Shown here one piece after another: positions 18,467 through 27,572 of a stretch of 64,000 nt of DNA. This stretch comes from Marivirga arenosa. Its GTDB lineage: Bacteria; Bacteroidota; Bacteroidia; Cytophagales; Cyclobacteriaceae. The notes beneath the pieces were generated by a model, which was not told the DNA's origin, searched no databases, and saw nothing but the letters and a program-made list of their open reading frames with translations. The DNA is taken from assembly GCF_030503895.2 (NCBI RefSeq), contig NZ_CP129970.2, positions 434,001-498,000 of the forward strand, given 5' to 3'. How positions within the stretch are numbered: the stretch's first letter is position 1; each line of letters begins with the position of its first letter. The position numbers were made by a program, and so were the translations under genes.

Positions 18467-19690
18467 ATGAATGATATACAGCTAGGTCTAAAACAAAATT
18501 GGAAACAATTCACATTATTAGTTATTGTGAATGCTTTTGTAGGAGGCATGGTTGGAATGGAGAGAAGCATTTTTCCTCAGTTTGCAGAATTGGAATTTGG
18601 TGTAGCCTCAAAAACTGCGATTCTTTCATTCATCACAGCTTTTGGAATTAGTAAAGCCATTGCCAATTATTATACGGGCAGACTAGCAAATAAAATTGGA
18701 AGAAGAAATTTATTACTCATTGGCTGGCTCATAGCTATACCAGTCCCTTTTATACTTATTTATGCTCCAAACTGGGCAATTGTTATTTTCGCTAATATCC
18801 TATTAGGAATAAGCCAAGGATTAACCTGGAGCAGCACTGTGGTCATGAAAATTGACCTAGTTGGCGAAAAAGACCGGGGCTTCGCTATGGGGTTAAATGA
18901 GTTTGCAGGCTATTTTGCGGTAGGTATAGTAGCATTTTTCACTGGCTATATTGCGAATAGTTATGGAGTTACTCCCTATCCTTTTTACATAGGAATATTC
19001 TTGTCCATTGTAGGTTTTATATTAACACTTATTTGGGTGAAGGACACCCGTGACTTTGTTCACAAAGAAAGTGGGACAGACAAAACCACAGAACTTAAAA
19101 ATATTTTCGTAGAAACAACTTTTAAAAACAAAACTCTGAGTTCAGTAACACAGGCAGGTTTAATAAATAATTTAAATGATGGTATGATATGGGGACTGCT
19201 ACCTATAATCCTTTTGAATCTAAGTTTTAATAATGAAAATATTGGGGTTATAACCGCTATTTATCCTACTGTATGGGGAATTGGTCAACTATTTACAGGA
19301 AAAATGTCCGACCATTATTCAAAAAAGGGAATGCTATTCTGGGGAATGTTAATGCAAGGCATTGCTATTTTTTTTATTCCTTATAGTAGTTCATTTTCGA
19401 TACTTGCTGGTTTATCAGCCATATTAGGATTAGGAACAGCCTTGGTTTACCCTACCTTTTTATCTACAATAGCTGAAGCCACAAGTCCTAAACAAAGAGC
19501 CGAAAGTGTTGGGACTTTTAGACTATGGAGAGACTTAGGTTATGCATTTGGTGCTATTATTTCTGGAATCACCGCAGATTTATTAGGGGTAGAATATGCT
19601 ATCATTTTAATAGCTATCTTAACCATTATATCCTCACTTATCATTCAATTCAGAATGCCCTCTGCAATCAAACAAATCGAAAATAACTAA
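18467..19690 (+). CDS. MFS transporter
   Basis: A major-facilitator permease with about 12 membrane segments. The ATG at 18467 (MNDIQLGLKQNWKQFT) is preferred; the frame also offers a TTG at 18443 that would add eight residues. Motif A-like loops are present: GRLANKIGRRNLLL after helix 2 and GKMSDHYSKKGMLFW in the second half. Helices are well separated by a charged central loop at about residues 195-225. The family moves small solutes by proton coupling, but the substrate cannot be read. It resembles permeases annotated simply as MFS in Cytophagales. It is not followed closely by another gene: the B12 promoter and riboswitch start just downstream, so read-through could matter. Confidence 0.85.
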   Translation: MNDIQLGLKQNWKQFTLLVIVNAFVGGMVGMERSIFPQFAELEFGVASKTAILSFITAFGISKAIANYYTGRLANKIGRRNLLLIGWLIAIPVPFILIYAPNWAIVIFANILLGISQGLTWSSTVVMKIDLVGEKDRGFAMGLNEFAGYFAVGIVAFFTGYIANSYGVTPYPFYIGIFLSIVGFILTLIWVKDTRDFVHKESGTDKTTELKNIFVETTFKNKTLSSVTQAGLINNLNDGMIWGLLPIILLNLSFNNENIGVITAIYPTVWGIGQLFTGKMSDHYSKKGMLFWGMLMQGIAIFFIPYSSSFSILAGLSAILGLGTALVYPTFLSTIAEATSPKQRAESVGTFRLWRDLGYAFGAIISGITADLLGVEYAIILIAILTIISSLIIQFRMPSAIKQIENN

Positions 19691-19713
19691 GACAGACAGG
19701 TTCAAGATAATCA

Positions 19714-19745
19714 TTTGTTAGTTCAAAGCCTTTTATCTACATTTG
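19714..19745 (+). promoter_or_regulatory. Consensus Bacteroidota promoter for the B12 operon
   Basis: TTTG at 19714-19717, a 20-base spacer and TACATTTG at 19738-19745 match the TTTG/TAnnTTTG consensus of the Bacteroidota primary sigma factor exactly. The predicted transcription start, about 5-8 bases on, coincides with the first paired base of the riboswitch. Confidence 0.8.
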
Positions 19746-19754
19746 CATTAGAAT

Positions 19755-19947
19755 TATGGTTTCTACATCATCAATATGCTGTAGAATTAAAAGGGAATTC
19801 GGTGATCAATCTTTAAAAATTGAAAGTCCGAAACTGTCCCCGCAACTGTAAGTCCAATTTTTATTAAAGTACAATCCCCTTGCCACTGTGCCGATTTTCG
19901 GTATGGGAAGGCCGCTACTTTAAGGACGAGTCAGGAGACCTGCCATA
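19755..19947 (+). ncRNA. Cobalamin (B12) riboswitch
   Basis: An adenosylcobalamin-type riboswitch aptamer. P1 can form between TATGG (19755-19759) and CCATA (19943-19947). The core includes AAGGGAATTCGGTG, then CCGAAACTGTCCCCGCAACTG in two overlapping pieces, GCCACTG, and the B12 box AGTCAGGAGACCTGCC at 19929-19944, which fits the published consensus. A hairpin at 19963-19981 (GACTTTC/GAAAGGTC) follows and may be part of the expression platform, although it has no T tract; control of translation or of a long leader is possible. It sits between a consensus promoter and a BtuB-like receptor gene, so B12 should repress the operon. Confidence 0.95.
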
Positions 19948-20053
19948 GCTCAAATTGATTTCGACTTTCGGGTGAAAGGTCAGGAATGTACTAAAGCTTA
20001 TAGAACACTTTTTTACATCTGATTTTGACCGTGGTCGCATTAAAAAAAATTAT

Positions 20054-21937
20054 ATGCGATTAGGTGTTTTATTAATTTTAGCCTGCATTACGAACGTATT
20101 GCAGGCACAGGAGAATGATAGTATTCCACTTTTGAATGAAATTTCCGTTAATGGTAATTTTGAAAAACAATTTTTAAGTGGGAATGCAATTATATTGCCT
20201 AAAATAGAAGCTACTTCATTTTACAATGGAAATAATATTAGTGAAGTATTAAAACAAAATAGTAGCATTTATTTTAAAGAATATGGCAATGGAATGCTTT
20301 CAACCATTGCTTTCCGTGGTACCAGTGCTAGCCAAACATCTGTTCTATGGAATAACTTCAACATCAATAACTATACTTTAGGACAAACTGATTTCTCCTT
20401 AATTCCTACTCAAGCAATTGAAGAGATTTCCATTATTCCGGGAAGTGGAAGCAGTATGGGAGGTAGTGGGGCATTTGGAGGTGCAGTATTATTAGAAAAC
20501 AATTTAAGCTATAAAGCTGCCAACCAGATTAAAATTAATCAGGAAGTTGGAAGCTTTGGATTTTCAAATAGTTATATCAATGCTTCAGGAAGTAATGGAA
20601 AATGGGCCTATTCAACCCGAACTTATTTTACCAATGCAAAAAATGATTTTGAAATACTTCAAACTGGTGAACTTCAAGAGAACGCTGCCTATAGTAAATG
20701 GGGGATAAATCAGAGCATTGGTTACAAAATAAGAAATACAGAGAGCATAAAGTTATCAATTTGGTATAATGACAACTTCAGAGAAATTCAAGCTCCTATT
20801 GGATCAAGTAGGGACGTAAATGAACAAAGTGATCATAACCTACGGACGCACCTTAATTATGAAAAGAATTTTAAAAATGGTTTCCTAAATGTCGGAACAG
20901 GCTATTTTATTGATGAATTAGATTATCGACTGAATGATGCGATTTCTTATTATAAAGTAAATAGATGGGAGAGCTTTTCAGATTATAAAATTCATTTTTT
21001 GAATTCTCATGAGCTAAAAATATCAGCTCGATATAATCATATTGAAGCTTTTAATCAGAATTATGAAAACGGTCAGGCGCTTGAGCAACGTTATAGTTTA
21101 AAAGCATTGCTTTCAGGGCAAATTAATCCGAAAATTAATTATGCAGTTCATTTAAGGCAACAATATATTCCAAAACAAAATATTCCAATTTCACCCTATG
21201 CAGGAATTTCATCAAAAATTATTGATCAAAGTAAGCATCAATTAGAATTAAAACTGAATTCATCTTACAACTACAGAGTACCCACATTAAATGATCGATT
21301 TTGGAATGAGTCAGATAACTCTAATCTAAAATCAGAAACAGCATGGAATAAAGAAGTTTCATTGAATTCTAATCATAAATTCACTGACCTAAAAGTAAAA
21401 TCTACAATTACAGCTTTTCATAATTTAGTTGATAATTGGATTCAATGGGTGCCGACAGTAAACAATATTTGGAGTCCTAGAAATATAAAGCAAGTACTTA
21501 CCGAAGGAATAGAAATTAGTACTGATTTTAAATGGGTATTTCCTTCTGATTTTGAAGTAAAATCAAACCTTCAATATAGTTATACTTCGTCCACCGTAAT
21601 GGATTCAGAGGTGAATCCCACTGAAATTGGAAAACAATTAATATATACACCTATAAATAAAGCGACAGCCTTTTTTTCTATTAGGAAACATAACTTTTCT
21701 TTTAATACTTTTCATCAACTAACCGGTAGAGTTTATACCACTAGTAATAACTCTGAAATATTTTCTTTATCCCCTTTTTATCTAACAGATATTGGTCTGA
21801 CATGGACTCCAAAAAATTGGGAAATATCCACAAAGATTAAAAATGTATTGGAACAGGAATATTTCCTGTATTCAGGCTTTGCCATGCCAGGAAGGAATTA
21901 CCAATTAAGCATCACTAAAACTTTTAATATTTATTAG
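20054..21937 (+). CDS. btuB: TonB-dependent receptor, BtuB-like, for cobalamin
   Basis: A 627-residue outer-membrane receptor with a signal peptide ending LQAQ at about residue 18. A plug domain occupies about 35-155 (IAFRGTSASQTSVLWNNFNINN; EEISIIPGSGSSMGGSGAFGGAV, both family-typical). A 22-strand barrel follows and the protein ends with an aromatic residue after GRNYQLSITKTFN, as outer-membrane barrels do. The B12 riboswitch directly upstream and the BtuG-like lipoprotein one base downstream make cobalamin or another corrinoid the likely substrate. It is at the short end of the family's length, as BtuB proteins are. Expression should rise when B12 is scarce. Confidence 0.9.
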   Translation: MRLGVLLILACITNVLQAQENDSIPLLNEISVNGNFEKQFLSGNAIILPKIEATSFYNGNNISEVLKQNSSIYFKEYGNGMLSTIAFRGTSASQTSVLWNNFNINNYTLGQTDFSLIPTQAIEEISIIPGSGSSMGGSGAFGGAVLLENNLSYKAANQIKINQEVGSFGFSNSYINASGSNGKWAYSTRTYFTNAKNDFEILQTGELQENAAYSKWGINQSIGYKIRNTESIKLSIWYNDNFREIQAPIGSSRDVNEQSDHNLRTHLNYEKNFKNGFLNVGTGYFIDELDYRLNDAISYYKVNRWESFSDYKIHFLNSHELKISARYNHIEAFNQNYENGQALEQRYSLKALLSGQINPKINYAVHLRQQYIPKQNIPISPYAGISSKIIDQSKHQLELKLNSSYNYRVPTLNDRFWNESDNSNLKSETAWNKEVSLNSNHKFTDLKVKSTITAFHNLVDNWIQWVPTVNNIWSPRNIKQVLTEGIEISTDFKWVFPSDFEVKSNLQYSYTSSTVMDSEVNPTEIGKQLIYTPINKATAFFSIRKHNFSFNTFHQLTGRVYTTSNNSEIFSLSPFYLTDIGLTWTPKNWEISTKIKNVLEQEYFLYSGFAMPGRNYQLSITKTFNIY

Positions 21938-21938
21938 A

Positions 21939-22985
21939 ATGAATCAAAAATACATTTACACTTTAGCTATTATTTCTCTTTCATTATTTCTGACAGCCTG
22001 TGGAGATCCAGAGGAAGTTCAATTAAAAACAGAAGGCGTTTACATTTATCATGAAGGGGGATTCGGAAGTAATAATGCTACAATAGGAACTTATAATCCT
22101 GAAAATTATGAGTACAATCCTGACCTATACAGAGGCCAAAATGGTGGATTTATTGGAGATGTACAGCAAAACATTTTGGTGGATGGCAATAATGACAGAA
22201 TTTATAGCGTACTGAATGGTAGTAATGCTATTGATCTCATGACTTTGAATTTAAAATCAGAGGATAAAATACGTTTTGCTCAATTAGACAAACCAAGAGA
22301 TATAGCAGTTAATGGAAATCTAGCTTTTATATCAAACTGGGGGCCATACAATGAAAATTTCACATTAACGAATAGCGAGATTTTTGTTGTGGATCTAAAT
22401 ACAAACGAACTGATTGAAAGTATACCAGTGCAAGAATATCCAGAGCATCTATATATTCAAAATAATAGGCTTATTGTTGGCCATTCTAATTTTGATGGCA
22501 GTATCAGTGAAATCTCCATTATCAATATTGATAATTTAGAAATAGAAAATACAATTGAAATGCCTGCTGGGCCAATGGAAATTATAGAGGATCAAAATAA
22601 TAATGTATGGATAGTTTGTACTAGTGGGAGCATTGTAAAGCTGAGTACTTCCCTATCAGGAATAGCAAATCAAATCGATCATGAAAATGGAATTTTAGGT
22701 GATATTGATTATTTTGAAGGGAGTATATACTTCTTTTCTAATGATGAAATTTTTTCTTTAAACACTTCTGACAATAATGTTTCTTCAACAGGAATCAATG
22801 TAGAAATGGAAACCCCTTATGCTTTTGCAGTTGATCCCGCTTCAGGAGATTTCTATTTAGGAGATGCTTTAGATTATGCCAGTGAAGGACTTGTGTTAAG
22901 ATATAGTTTTAATGGCGAATTAGAAGATACTTTCCAATCTGGAATCATCCCTACTCAATTTTCATTTAATGTGGGAAGAAAATAA
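21939..22985 (+). CDS. BtuG-like surface beta-propeller lipoprotein (YncE/DUF5074 type)
   Basis: A 348-residue lipoprotein (lipobox LTAC, residues 18-21). The rest is a series of short propeller-blade repeats with YncE-like wording: DRIYSVLNGSNAIDLM, KPRDIAVNGNLAFISN, PEHLYIQNNRLIVGHS, PMEIIEDQNNNVWIV. In gut Bacteroides, BtuG is a seven-bladed surface propeller that caps BtuB and binds B12 very tightly. The start lies one base after the btuB stop and the gene shares the riboswitch leader, so a BtuG-like role is well supported by context; direct homology needs a search. Related propellers (DUF5074) occur beside many BtuB genes in Bacteroidota. Confidence 0.8.
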   Translation: MNQKYIYTLAIISLSLFLTACGDPEEVQLKTEGVYIYHEGGFGSNNATIGTYNPENYEYNPDLYRGQNGGFIGDVQQNILVDGNNDRIYSVLNGSNAIDLMTLNLKSEDKIRFAQLDKPRDIAVNGNLAFISNWGPYNENFTLTNSEIFVVDLNTNELIESIPVQEYPEHLYIQNNRLIVGHSNFDGSISEISIINIDNLEIENTIEMPAGPMEIIEDQNNNVWIVCTSGSIVKLSTSLSGIANQIDHENGILGDIDYFEGSIYFFSNDEIFSLNTSDNNVSSTGINVEMETPYAFAVDPASGDFYLGDALDYASEGLVLRYSFNGELEDTFQSGIIPTQFSFNVGRK

Positions 22986-23374
22986 TGCTTAACTCGCAAA
23001 ATCAAAGAATGAGTAATTCAATTACAAAAGTAACAAAAGCTATATTTCCAAATACAACAAATCATTATGATACACTATTTGGAGGTACGGCTTTACAATG
23101 GATGGATGAAGCAGCATTTATTACTGCCACCCGATATTCCAGACAAAAAATGGTTACTGTTAGTAGTGATAAAATTGATTTTAATAAAGCAATTCCTGCT
23201 GGAACTATTGTAGAACTTGTAGGAGAAATAGTAAGAATTGGAAAAACGAGCTTAGAAGTCAGAGTTGATGTCTTTACTGAAGAGATGTATTCTGAAAACA
23301 GAGAAAAATCAATTTCTGGTAACTTTACTATGGTTGCAATTGATGAGAATAAGGATCCAATAACAATTAAATGA
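22985..23374 (+). CDS. Acyl-CoA thioesterase, hotdog fold (YciA/ACOT type)
   Basis: A 129-residue hotdog-fold protein. The signature NHYDTLFGGTALQWMDEAAFITA contains the catalytic Asp of acyl-CoA hydrolases of this family, in the usual FGG..L.WMDE context, followed by VTVSSDKIDFNKAIPAGTIVEL and RIGKTSLEVRVDV. It hydrolyses acyl-CoA thioesters; chain-length preference is unknown. Its ATG overlaps the BtuG-like stop (TAATG), and a second ATG at 23009 is a possible start. The DUF5522 gene overlaps its end. Membership of a B12-controlled, translationally coupled operon is unexpected for a housekeeping thioesterase. Confidence 0.9.
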   Translation: MLNSQNQRMSNSITKVTKAIFPNTTNHYDTLFGGTALQWMDEAAFITATRYSRQKMVTVSSDKIDFNKAIPAGTIVELVGEIVRIGKTSLEVRVDVFTEEMYSENREKSISGNFTMVAIDENKDPITIK

Positions 23375-23529
23375 ATAGTAAAAAAGTTAAATTAGAAGAT
23401 GGTGATTTCTACATGGAAAATGGATTTTTCGTTTTTACCGAAAAATATCATCTAAAACGTGGATATTGTTGTGGTAATAAGTGTAGGCATTGTCCTTACG
23501 ATCACAAGAATGTGAAATCAAAAAAATAA
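23371..23529 (+). CDS. DUF5522 small cysteine-rich protein, 52 residues
   Basis: A short gene starting with the ATG that overlaps the thioesterase stop (ATGA). The protein has a tail motif YHLKRGYCCGNKCRHCPY, the hallmark of the DUF5522 family, with four cysteines and a histidine in a compact CC-x3-C-x2-C layout that looks like a metal or cluster site. Residues 1-25 are a hydrophilic and aromatic lead. It has no signal peptide or membrane segment and should be cytoplasmic. The function is unknown. The family is widespread as a tiny stand-alone protein in Bacteroidota, and length here is normal. It is the fourth coupled gene after the B12 riboswitch. Confidence 0.85.
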   Translation: MNSKKVKLEDGDFYMENGFFVFTEKYHLKRGYCCGNKCRHCPYDHKNVKSKK

Positions 23530-23571
23530 AGAACACTTTATAATTATTTTTTTACTTTCGTATTAACCTAA

Positions 23572-24594
23572 TTGAAAGTAAAATTGAAAGAGAACCATAA
23601 GTGTTTAAACTGTGGTGAAGAACTAGATTCATCGCAAAACTTTTGCCCAAATTGTGGGCAGGAAAATTCAGATAAAAAATTACCTATAGGTGAGTTTTTA
23701 AAAGACTTTTTCTCGAATACCTTAAGTTTTGATACTATTTTATTTAAAACGATAAATCCCTTCTTATTTAGACCGGGCAAGCTAACAAGAGCTTTTAATG
23801 AAGGGAAAAGAAGAAGATATATTAATCCTATAAGATTGTACCTAATCTTTTCCCTTTTTTACTTTTTCATGATCAGTTTAACGGTACCTAAGGACTTTAT
23901 TGATTCTAATATTCGATCAGGTTTAAATCAAAAAGAAATACTAGACTCCGCCAGAATCGGTAATTTAGACAGTGCTGGAATTCAAGCTATTATTCAGAAA
24001 ACTAAAACTCCAGATAGCCTAGTTAAAGAAATAGAAAAAGCCAGTAAAAAAGTTAAAGATTCAACTGACCGATGGGCAACATTAAAATATTGGGCAGATG
24101 ACAACACTTTAAATGATCAAGAATTTGAAGCAAATTTAGACTCTATTGGGTTTGATCAAGATCTGTTTGAAACTAAAATAATCAGATCATTCATCAATAA
24201 TTCCTCAATTTTTACTTATCAAGCAGTTCGGAACCTTCCTTTGATGATGTTTATCTTTTTACCGATTTTCGCACTCATATTAAAGTTACTTTTTTTCAAA
24301 AAGCGGTATTATTATATCGAGCACCTAATTCACGGTTTACATTTGCATGCTTTCGCCTATTTCATATACGGATTGGGAATATTAATCATTAGTCTTTACC
24401 CCACAATCGATGGCACGGTTATTTTTGTAAGCTTTATATGGGTTAGTACATACGCATTATTTTCCATTAAAAAACTCTATAATAACGGATGGTTTAAGTC
24501 CTTTTTAAAGTTTATCATTCTAGGAGTATTCTATGGCTCATTATTAGTCTTTGGTTTTTTACTAGAACTCTATATATCTCTTATTAGCCTATAA
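23572..24594 (+). CDS. DUF3667 membrane protein with N-terminal zinc ribbon
   Basis: A 340-residue protein. Residues 11-30 form a double-CxxC zinc ribbon (KCLNCGEEL, FCPNCGQEN), followed by a conserved amphipathic segment and the GKRRRYINPIRLYLIFSLFY run typical of DUF3667. A charged periplasmic or cytoplasmic loop of about 120 residues comes next, then four or more hydrophobic helices (for example LMMFIFLPIFALILKLLFF; LGILIISLYP). An in-frame TAA (23569-23571) sits immediately upstream and the zinc ribbon needs the early part, so a TTG start at 23572 (or 23584) is required. It lies 42 bp after the DUF5522 gene and may be part of the same transcript. Function unknown. Confidence 0.82.
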   Translation: MKVKLKENHKCLNCGEELDSSQNFCPNCGQENSDKKLPIGEFLKDFFSNTLSFDTILFKTINPFLFRPGKLTRAFNEGKRRRYINPIRLYLIFSLFYFFMISLTVPKDFIDSNIRSGLNQKEILDSARIGNLDSAGIQAIIQKTKTPDSLVKEIEKASKKVKDSTDRWATLKYWADDNTLNDQEFEANLDSIGFDQDLFETKIIRSFINNSSIFTYQAVRNLPLMMFIFLPIFALILKLLFFKKRYYYIEHLIHGLHLHAFAYFIYGLGILIISLYPTIDGTVIFVSFIWVSTYALFSIKKLYNNGWFKSFLKFIILGVFYGSLLVFGFLLELYISLISL

Positions 24595-26582: not shown

Positions 26583-27572
26583 TCAATTATAATATTGGTT
26601 CAATAAGGTTCTTGCAGCTTGAACGGAATGTTTGGTTCCATTTCTAACTTCAGCTTCAAATTTGCTTAATTTTTCCAGTATTTCGGGACTTTTGTAGAAG
26701 TTTCTTTTCAGAAAATGATGAATCGTCTGATGCATCCAATGTATGGCCTGATCTTTTCTGTTTTCATCAAAAAAGCCAGTCTCATTTTGTTCTTTATGAA
26801 ACTGCTCAAGCAGCTCTAAAATCTCACTTAAGCCGTCATCTTTTATGGCAGAACAAGTCTTTACCTTAGGATTCCATCCATTTTCGTTAGCGGGAAATAA
26901 ATGAAGTGCATTCTGATATTCTTTTTTTGCTTTTTTAGCAGGTTCTACATTTTCGCCATCAGCTTTATTAATAGCAATAGCATCGGCCATTTCCATTATT
27001 CCTTTTTTAATACCCTGTAATTCATCGCCAGCACCAGCAAGCATCAAAAGTAGGAAGAAATCTACCATGTTTTTCACTGCAGTTTCTGATTGCCCCACTC
27101 CTACCGTCTCAATAATAATAAAATCATAACCTGCTGCTTCACAAAGCAACATTGTTTCTCGAGTTTTATGAGCTACTCCCCCGAGTGCATCACCAGATGG
27201 CGAAGGTCGGATAAAAGCATTTGATGACCTGCTTAAGGTTTCCATTCTCGTTTTATCACCTAAGATACTTCCTCCTGTTTTCTGGCTGGAAGGATCAATA
27301 GTTAACACTGCTAATTTCTTTCCTGAATCAATTACATGTTTTCCAAAAGATTCAATAAAGGTGCTTTTCCCTACTCCAGGGACTCCAGTTATCCCTACTC
27401 TGAAAGAATTACCAGTATGCTCATATATTTCATCTATTAACTGAGCCGCTAATTCATTATCACTATCTAAAGTGCTCTCAACTAAGGTTATAGCCCTGCT
27501 TAACCCAACACGATCACCTGATAAAATCCCTGATTTATATTCTTCTAATGAAAGTCGCTTTCTTCTTTTCAA
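26583..27572 (-). CDS. meaB: Methylmalonyl-CoA mutase-associated GTPase MeaB
   Basis: A 329-residue G3E-type GTPase that protects and loads B12-dependent methylmalonyl-CoA mutase. The Walker A loop is GITGVPGVGKSTFIESFG, followed by LTIDPSSQKTGGSILGDKTRM, FIRPSPSGDALGGVAHKT, ETVGVGQSE (Walker B/G3) and INKADGEN (NKxD). The C-terminal helical dimerisation region is present. The start is TTG (27572-27570, MKRRKRLS); no ATG is available upstream or before the conserved segment. The mutase genes are not in the window. It heads a two-gene unit with the T9SS propeller protein. Confidence 0.95.
   Translation of the reverse strand: MKRRKRLSLEEYKSGILSGDRVGLSRAITLVESTLDSDNELAAQLIDEIYEHTGNSFRVGITGVPGVGKSTFIESFGKHVIDSGKKLAVLTIDPSSQKTGGSILGDKTRMETLSRSSNAFIRPSPSGDALGGVAHKTRETMLLCEAAGYDFIIIETVGVGQSETAVKNMVDFFLLLMLAGAGDELQGIKKGIMEMADAIAINKADGENVEPAKKAKKEYQNALHLFPANENGWNPKVKTCSAIKDDGLSEILELLEQFHKEQNETGFFDENRKDQAIHWMHQTIHHFLKRNFYKSPEILEKLSKFEAEVRNGTKHSVQAARTLLNQYYN

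Follow-up and report, generated by a model that had tools for sequence, protein, structure and literature searches.

Why should an acyl-coenzyme A (acyl-CoA) thioesterase and a cysteine-rich microprotein be encoded in one operon with proteins for the uptake of vitamin B12 (cobalamin)? The question is raised by a stretch of the Marivirga arenosa genome, here called the window (the whole 64,000 nucleotides analyzed, G000:C1:434001-498000 of a one-contig, 3.94-Mb genome), in which a B12 riboswitch precedes four coupled genes encoding a BtuB-like receptor, a BtuG-like lipoprotein, a 4HBT (hotdog) thioesterase (TE), and a protein of the family DUF5522. A preliminary description of this DNA had proposed that the last two genes reflect work on acyl-CoA linked to a B12-dependent mutase, or else metal or cofactor handling. 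We found that the TE belongs to a subfamily that recurs behind B12 riboswitches with varied partners, and its B12 control is well supported, far more firmly than its substrate. Our reading, to which we assign a probability of about 60%, is that this is a B12-scarcity operon with a B12-repressed TE that would relieve a stalled methylmalonyl-CoA mutase by hydrolyzing propionyl- or methylmalonyl-CoA.

The operon in the window

The riboswitch (positions 19740 to 19961, plus strand) matches the complete RF00174 model, positions 1 to 189, with a cmscan score of 111 bits against a gathering threshold of 31.5 (E value, 5.8e-27), and the whole 3.94-Mb genome contains no second match to this model. The four genes that follow on the same strand encode a TonB-dependent receptor of 627 amino acids with Pfam barrel and plug domains (20054 to 21937), a putative surface lipoprotein of 348 amino acids with a beta-propeller fold (21939 to 22985), the TE of 129 amino acids (22985 to 23374), and the DUF5522 microprotein of 52 amino acids, with cysteines at residues 33, 34, 38, and 41 (23371 to 23529). 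Read directly, the junctions are TAG A ATG, a one-base gap, followed by the two overlaps TAATG and ATGA, and both the riboswitch and the tight coupling of the four genes are as first described. The receptor scores 85.7 bits with the NCBIfam model TIGR01779 (TonB-B12), which is its best NCBIfam match and has a cut-off of 599.7; we call it btuB-like because of the riboswitch and the BtuG-like neighbor. That neighbor is matched by phmmer to the solved BtuG propeller 8p97_B (3.5e-18) and further to 8okv, 8bmx, and 8bmy, structures whose deposition codes are given in the part of PMC10404256 that we draw on. Its translation, inspected by eye, has the possible lipobox LTAC and then GDPEE; the rule given for BtuG in passages of PMC6143338 is a lipobox cysteine and a following export signal. 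The TE scores 68.2 bits with Pfam PF03061 (4HBT), above the cut-off of 20.6, and 45 bits with the YciA equivalog NF007970, below the cut-off of 162; its closest solved structures are 2gvh and 2eis (TTHB207). The DUF5522 protein scores 79.8 bits with PF17653 (cut-off, 25).

The set of riboswitch, btuB, btuG, TE, and DUF5522 is kept in eight of the nine members of the genus (G000 and G002 to G008), and in those eight the TE lies 3.0 to 3.2 kb and DUF5522 3.4 to 3.6 kb behind the riboswitch. In G002, gene calling had missed the last two genes, which were positioned by separate searches. The ninth member, G001, an assembly in 460 contigs that is 86% complete, yielded no match for the riboswitch, DUF5522, or the window-type TE. 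Outside the genus, Fulvivirga sediminis (L137) has a riboswitch box followed by btuB, btuG, TE, and DUF5522, and a window-like gene order is found in the Fulvivirga and Cyclobacteriaceae contigs L092, L125, L137, and L152. The survey of relatives bears out the arrangement.

The part of the operon made up of riboswitch, BtuB, and BtuG is already known. The Bacteroides loci treated in passages of PMC6143338 and PMC10404256 likewise combine a B12 riboswitch, a BtuB receptor, and an adjoining BtuG-type surface lipoprotein. In contrast to the window, the word thioesterase is absent from the main text of both papers, and the window, unlike those loci, has no ABC transporter gene between the riboswitch and the DUF5522 gene. 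According to passages of PMC6143338, a riboswitch of this type in B. thetaiotaomicron is repressed about 70-fold by B12; by analogy, the riboswitch of the window is expected to bind cobalamin and to repress.

Riboswitch linkage of the thioesterase subfamily

The subfamily was searched with an alignment of eight TE proteins, all from riboswitch loci; a score set its limits, and linkage played no part in the definition. A TE gene was counted as linked when it lay no more than 7 kb downstream of an RF00174 match on the same strand. Two samples were used: a near set of 39 genomes (that of the window and 38 relatives) and a class sample of 296 genomes that are at least 90% complete. Sixteen of the 39 near-set genomes carry the TE, at 201.8 to 272.3 bits, with the next paralogs reaching at most 90 bits, and 14 of the 16 are linked, against an expected 0.016 (this and the other expected values given here are Poisson estimates that assume independent genomes, an assumption that does not hold). 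None of the 56 other 4HBT paralogs (E ≤ 1e-15) listed in the same near-set genomes is linked. In the class sample the TE (E ≤ 1e-45) is found in 39 of the 296 genomes, that of the window included; when the latter is set aside, 20 of 38 are linked (expected, 0.053). Combined, the TE is present in 54 of 332 different genomes and linked in 34, which span 24 genera and 19 families. In five genomes it lies directly behind the riboswitch, with a gap of 64 to 189 bp.

The 34 linked cases fall into six gene contexts, with family names taken from profiles run on one or two sequences per BLAST cluster and not on every member. Btu-type uptake operons account for 12 cases: the eight genus members, G026, whose TonB-dependent receptor falls in the same BLAST cluster as btuB, and G027, G032, and G211. 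Seven genomes (G017, G038, G049, G220, G280, G296, and G330) have the order riboswitch-metE-TE. Another seven have class I ribonucleotide reductase genes, as nrdB-TE-nrdA in G040, G109, G202, G223, and G315, as nrdB-nrdA-TE in G050, and as TE-nrdB-nrdA in G266. The TE comes first and has no named partner in four (G058, G075, G206, and G290), follows a PAS-domain protein in three (G010, G236, and G302), and follows a CWC protein in one (G304).

A separate observation concerns the small PAS-domain gene before the TE, which was seen at L201:8010-8645, L255:7402-8025, L256:7416-7988, and L269:5171-5698, in three of the four behind a B12 riboswitch. By eye, the protein resembles the LOV (light-oxygen-voltage) type, with an altered cysteine motif.

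In a tree of 83 rows and 125 columns, 69 subfamily rows, among them the alphaproteobacterial and Deinococcota sequences, split from 14 paralogs with support of 100/99; support is weak at many of the inner forks, and the bootstrap was not quite settled. Riboswitch-linked and unlinked rows are intermixed in the tree, and linkage was therefore probably gained or lost repeatedly. The TE shares with the YciA- and BH1999-type thioesterases (solved as 2gvh and 2eis) the hotdog 4HBT family and a conserved aspartate after the GG..L motif, and it differs from them in occupying its own side of the tree and in its link to B12. This aspartate, Asp41 (codon at 23105 to 23107), is invariant in TE alignments of eight and nine sequences, and its counterpart is an aspartate in the first domain of 2gvh and not in the second. 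The corresponding aspartate of YciA is catalytic, and Asp41 is likely to have that role here.

The thioesterase in other phyla

Loci outside the Bacteroidota were picked from plasmid matches and are not a random sample; they include six from the Deinococcota. Thermus thermophilus HB27 has a riboswitch (33.2 bits) followed by TE, nrdB, and nrdA, and its TE, judged by name and alignment, probably corresponds in this strain to TTHB207, the protein solved as 2eis. Thermus brockianus has the same order behind an adenosylcobalamin (AdoCbl) riboswitch of 52.6 bits. In Deinococcus radiodurans, D. ficus, and Deinococcus sp. AJ005 the order is TE-nrdI-nrdE-nrdF-thioredoxin, with a small hypothetical gene after the TE in D. 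ficus.

Among the eight alphaproteobacterial loci retrieved, from 12 records, genes of the methylcitrate cycle (prp) adjoin the TE in seven. The order TE-prpD-prpC-prpB, found in Paracoccaceae, is that of Thioclava, Cereibacter, Paracoccus aminophilus, P. aminovorans, and P. ferrooxidans; P. yeei has TE and prpB, with an unannotated gap at the locus; and Novosphingobium has a riboswitch followed by DUF1852, methionine synthase, TE, acnD, and prpF. The exception is Sphingomonas NY01, with no methylcitrate genes next to the TE, where a riboswitch of 121 bits lies directly before the TE and a divergent riboswitch-DUF1852-methionine synthase unit adjoins. A further search yielded Ensifer adhaerens, with a riboswitch (117.5 bits), metE, and TE, and then a second riboswitch and nrdE/nrdF-like genes; this record is unannotated, and the other genes were named by similarity. 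The Ensifer TE has two 4HBT stretches in one frame.

A possible role in relief of methylmalonyl-CoA mutase

When B12 is low, a cell needs more uptake and enzymes such as MetE and NrdAB, and these are the partners of the TE; in alphaproteobacteria they include the B12-free route for propionyl-CoA. At low B12, bacteria turn to B12-free substitutes for MetH and NrdJ, and metE and nrd genes are under B12 riboswitch control in other bacteria. Methylmalonyl-CoA mutase is, to our knowledge, the B12 enzyme that has no isozyme, and we know of no general answer to B12 shortage, of the kind that MetE and NrdAB provide, for it. We propose that with ample cobalamin the riboswitch would repress all four genes of the window and that with scarce cobalamin BtuB and BtuG would be made for scavenging, together with the TE from the same message. 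Lacking adenosylcobalamin, the mutase would stall, and propionyl- and methylmalonyl-CoA would accumulate and trap CoA; the TE would then most likely hydrolyze one or both, so that CoA is freed and the acids leave the cell. MetE, which backs up MetH without B12, and class I NrdAB, which does so for NrdJ, would be joined by the TE as a third such backup. The preliminary suggestion of acyl-CoA linked to a B12-dependent mutase fits the partners best, because these include the B12-free MetE and NrdAB and the methylcitrate genes, which act on propionyl-CoA; the substrate itself, propionyl- and/or methylmalonyl-CoA, we put at roughly even odds. In line with the mutase reading, none of the 39 near-set genomes has prpB above the curated cut-off. 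Also in line with it, the genome of the window has three PF01642 (mutase) matches and no MetE, which was found in 3 of 18 genomes searched, one of them (G007) within the genus, and meaB, the gene for the mutase chaperone, lies near the operon.

Several observations weigh against this proposal. The substrate is deduced from gene context. Co-occurrence with the mutase, tried as a test, had no power and is uninformative, PF01642 being present in 282 of the 296 class genomes (36 of 39 with the TE versus 246 of 257 without it), and three TE-bearing genomes (G076, G227, and G262) have no mutase; these three also have no RF00174 match at all. No riboswitch was detected near 20 of the 54 TE genes, and when four of these loci (L271, L278, L280, and L284) were scanned against all of Rfam, no B12 riboswitch appeared. 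Three of the 20 still adjoin B12-type genes: metE-like and CWC genes in G286, a BtuG-like gene in G258, and DUF5522 and cobT-type genes in G245. Of the three Deinococcus TE-nrd loci, those of D. radiodurans and D. ficus have, just upstream, AdoCbl-II matches below the Rfam threshold (25.2 and 24.6 versus 36.5 bits) and that of strain AJ005 has none, while D. proteolyticus has a TE with neither an nrd neighbor nor a riboswitch match. In the six TE-prp loci from Rhodobacterales, no riboswitch immediately precedes the TE; elsewhere in two of these stretches a riboswitch lies behind prpB (Cereibacter) or before cbtB (P. aminophilus). The Ensifer locus, the ninth from the alphaproteobacteria, has metE and nrd genes, not prp. 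Finally, a TE of Proteus mirabilis H63 (L293:5965-6387), 60% identical to that of the window, has no riboswitch match. As an aside, this sequence is placed among the Bacteroidota rows of the tree; it was possibly acquired by transfer.

The alternative that survives best is that the TE, as a B12-scarcity gene, serves another acyl-CoA or a general demand for sparing CoA that comes with a change to MetE or NrdAB, and not a stalled mutase. YciA-like thioesterases are broad in activity, the NrdAB and MetE contexts alone name no acyl-CoA, and the three mutase-less genomes would be as expected; on the other hand, propionyl-CoA is the acyl-CoA whose mutase route requires B12, and it is with methylcitrate genes that the TE sits in alphaproteobacteria. 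We consider this alternative unlikely, though with a real chance of being right. A role of the TE in B12 salvage itself, for instance on an acylated intermediate of cobamide assembly and with the DUF5522 or CWC protein, would suit the order DUF5522-TE upstream of a cobT-type gene in G245 and the CWC-TE pairs in G304 and G286, but we know of no acyl-CoA step in cobamide salvage and the Thermus and Ensifer loci have no salvage genes beside the TE, which makes this role improbable. That the TE and DUF5522 genes are mere passengers, unrelated to B12, accords with the 20 TE genes and the 18 of 30 DUF5522 places that are unlinked and is highly improbable given linkage in 34 of 54 cases, several unrelated partners, three phyla among the loci retrieved, the absence of linkage in all 56 paralogs, and the five genomes with the TE directly after the riboswitch.

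Relief of the mutase may have a wider reach than the window. We regard it as an evenly balanced proposition that a dedicated TE, repressed by a B12 riboswitch, serves in bacteria of three or more phyla as a relief valve for the cofactor-starved mutase, a third and so far unnamed B12-sparing arm beside MetE and NrdAB, aided in some Bacteroidota by a DUF5522 or CWC microprotein. The metE and nrd systems, whose control by B12 riboswitches is named for Chlorobium in a passage of PMC8620254, are akin to the TE in riboswitch class and in providing a B12-free substitute at low B12, and 14 genomes have the TE within such operons; the TE differs in that no B12 enzyme has it as an isozyme and in that it would relieve a block, not replace a reaction. 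A more distant likeness is the propionate shunt of Caenorhabditis elegans, for which the part of PMC11408853 that we draw on describes induction at low B12 of another way of handling propionyl-CoA, by a beta-oxidation-like route with a CoA-ester hydrolase step; in contrast to the TE, the shunt uses unrelated proteins, control by nuclear hormone receptors, and a full oxidation route.

We found no report of the TE as a recurrent B12-riboswitch gene in the literature searched; the 2003 surveys of B12 elements lie outside its coverage, and an earlier mention there is possible. Control of metE and nrd is reportedly described in such surveys, which also name hypothetical proteins. The passages we found that pair a cobalamin riboswitch with a thioesterase are unrelated to the window-type TE, and passages of PMC2667541 and PMC8307300 contain nothing on it. 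A TE that keeps company with MetE, NrdAB, and the methylcitrate genes, in many cases behind a B12 riboswitch, offers methylmalonyl-CoA mutase a concrete candidate answer that is easy to test. If this is true, a generic annotation as acyl-CoA thioesterase would become a specific role, 2eis, whose solved structure was deposited under the label of hypothetical protein, would gain a function, and B12-starved members of these groups would be predicted to shed propionate or methylmalonate.

The DUF5522 microprotein

DUF5522 was found at 30 places in 28 of the 39 near-set genomes, and 12 of the 30 follow a riboswitch at a distance of up to 7 kb, where 0.030 would be expected, in the eight genus members and in G010, G017, G027, and G035. 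Among the best 80 of at least 573 named DUF5522 loci, 6, including that of Fulvivirga sediminis, have an upstream match to a B12-box pattern that recovers 28 of 29 known riboswitches. In L287 the DUF5522 gene has cobU, cobT, and cobS as neighbors; in a contig of Meiothermus (L111), its neighbors are cobT and cobS. Within a group of 29 DUF5522 loci, a class-III aminotransferase gene is nearby in 10 and an L28 gene in 6. The coupling to B12 first proposed for both small genes thus holds broadly for the TE, with its six contexts, and for only part of the DUF5522 family, where it is real.

The four cysteines are invariant in all 19 sequences aligned, and a Cys_rich_CWC domain is present at the N terminus of some of the longer versions (by profile scan in L055 and by alignment in others). 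Metal binding by these cysteines is possible, a supposition of ours from the sequences that the Pfam definition does not contain, and the protein is possibly a metal-binding accessory of B12 salvage; the metal or cofactor handling named in the preliminary description is likewise possible for it. An AlphaFold model was not interpretable (pLDDT, 64; pTM, 0.38). Our searches found no literature on DUF5522.

Promoter and leader

The consensus promoter placed before the aptamer by the preliminary description is of the Bacteroidota type (19714 to 19745, plus strand), with TTTG at -33 (19714 to 19717) and the -7 box TACATTTG at 19738 to 19745, as read in the sequence. A -7 box (TAnnTTTG) and an upstream TTG at a spacing of 19 to 20 nucleotides are present in all eight genus members aligned, amid diverging flanks; the G008 version of the box is TACCTTTG. 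For Flavobacterium psychrophilum, a passage of PMC9723704 gives the consensus TAnnTTTG at -12 to -5, a spacing by which transcription would start at about 19750, at the first helix of the aptamer. A separate promoter inside the BtuG-like gene would have spoken against a single transcript; that gene holds no complete TTG-N17..23-TAnnTTTG match and a lone -7-like box at 22487. One full match lies inside btuB at 20132, seen in the window sequence alone, and a weak internal promoter is possible. A scan with the sigma-70 consensus was uninformative (24 matches versus a mean of 22.9 in shuffles).

No terminator-like site was seen on the plus strand of 19300 to 24000, and the predicted control likely acts on translation. 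A possible expression platform, put forward as a hypothesis from the genus alignment, is the inverted repeat TCGCAT (20035 to 20040) and ATGCGA (20054 to 20059), plus strand, which would pair over the btuB start codon. The stem forms in five of six folded fragments, that of G008 folding otherwise; in a fold of the whole leader it is present in the centroid and absent from the minimum-energy structure.

Neighboring genes and recurrent families

The gene meaB, for the mutase chaperone, lies 3 kb downstream of the operon on the opposite strand (26583 to 27572). By BLAST to the window genes, meaB and a CHASE2-type gene are found just downstream of the B12 operon in L092, L125, L137, and L152 as well. 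For the TE of G212, a heme link suggested by an adjoining HmuY-type gene was dropped, as it was seen in one genome only.

Three further families recur in B12 loci. A PP-loop ATPase (PF01902, Dph6-like; four members profile scanned), seen in L044, L206, L212, L287, L090, L125, and L137 and at L033:3236-3943, recurs in B12 riboswitch or cob loci of the Bacteroidota; in six genus members it lies behind DUF3667, and the window lacks it between positions 24594 and 24603. The gene for a DUF6580 membrane protein (PF20221; two members scanned) occurs in L206, L211, L213, L214, L262, and L268, five of which have a riboswitch and a btuB-type receptor. The third is a secreted family (L268:4846-5850, L262:7345-8343, L207:7480-8454, and L251:6160-7149), found once directly after a riboswitch-TE pair; the one member scanned has a type IX secretion system tail, and a B12-binding function is possible.

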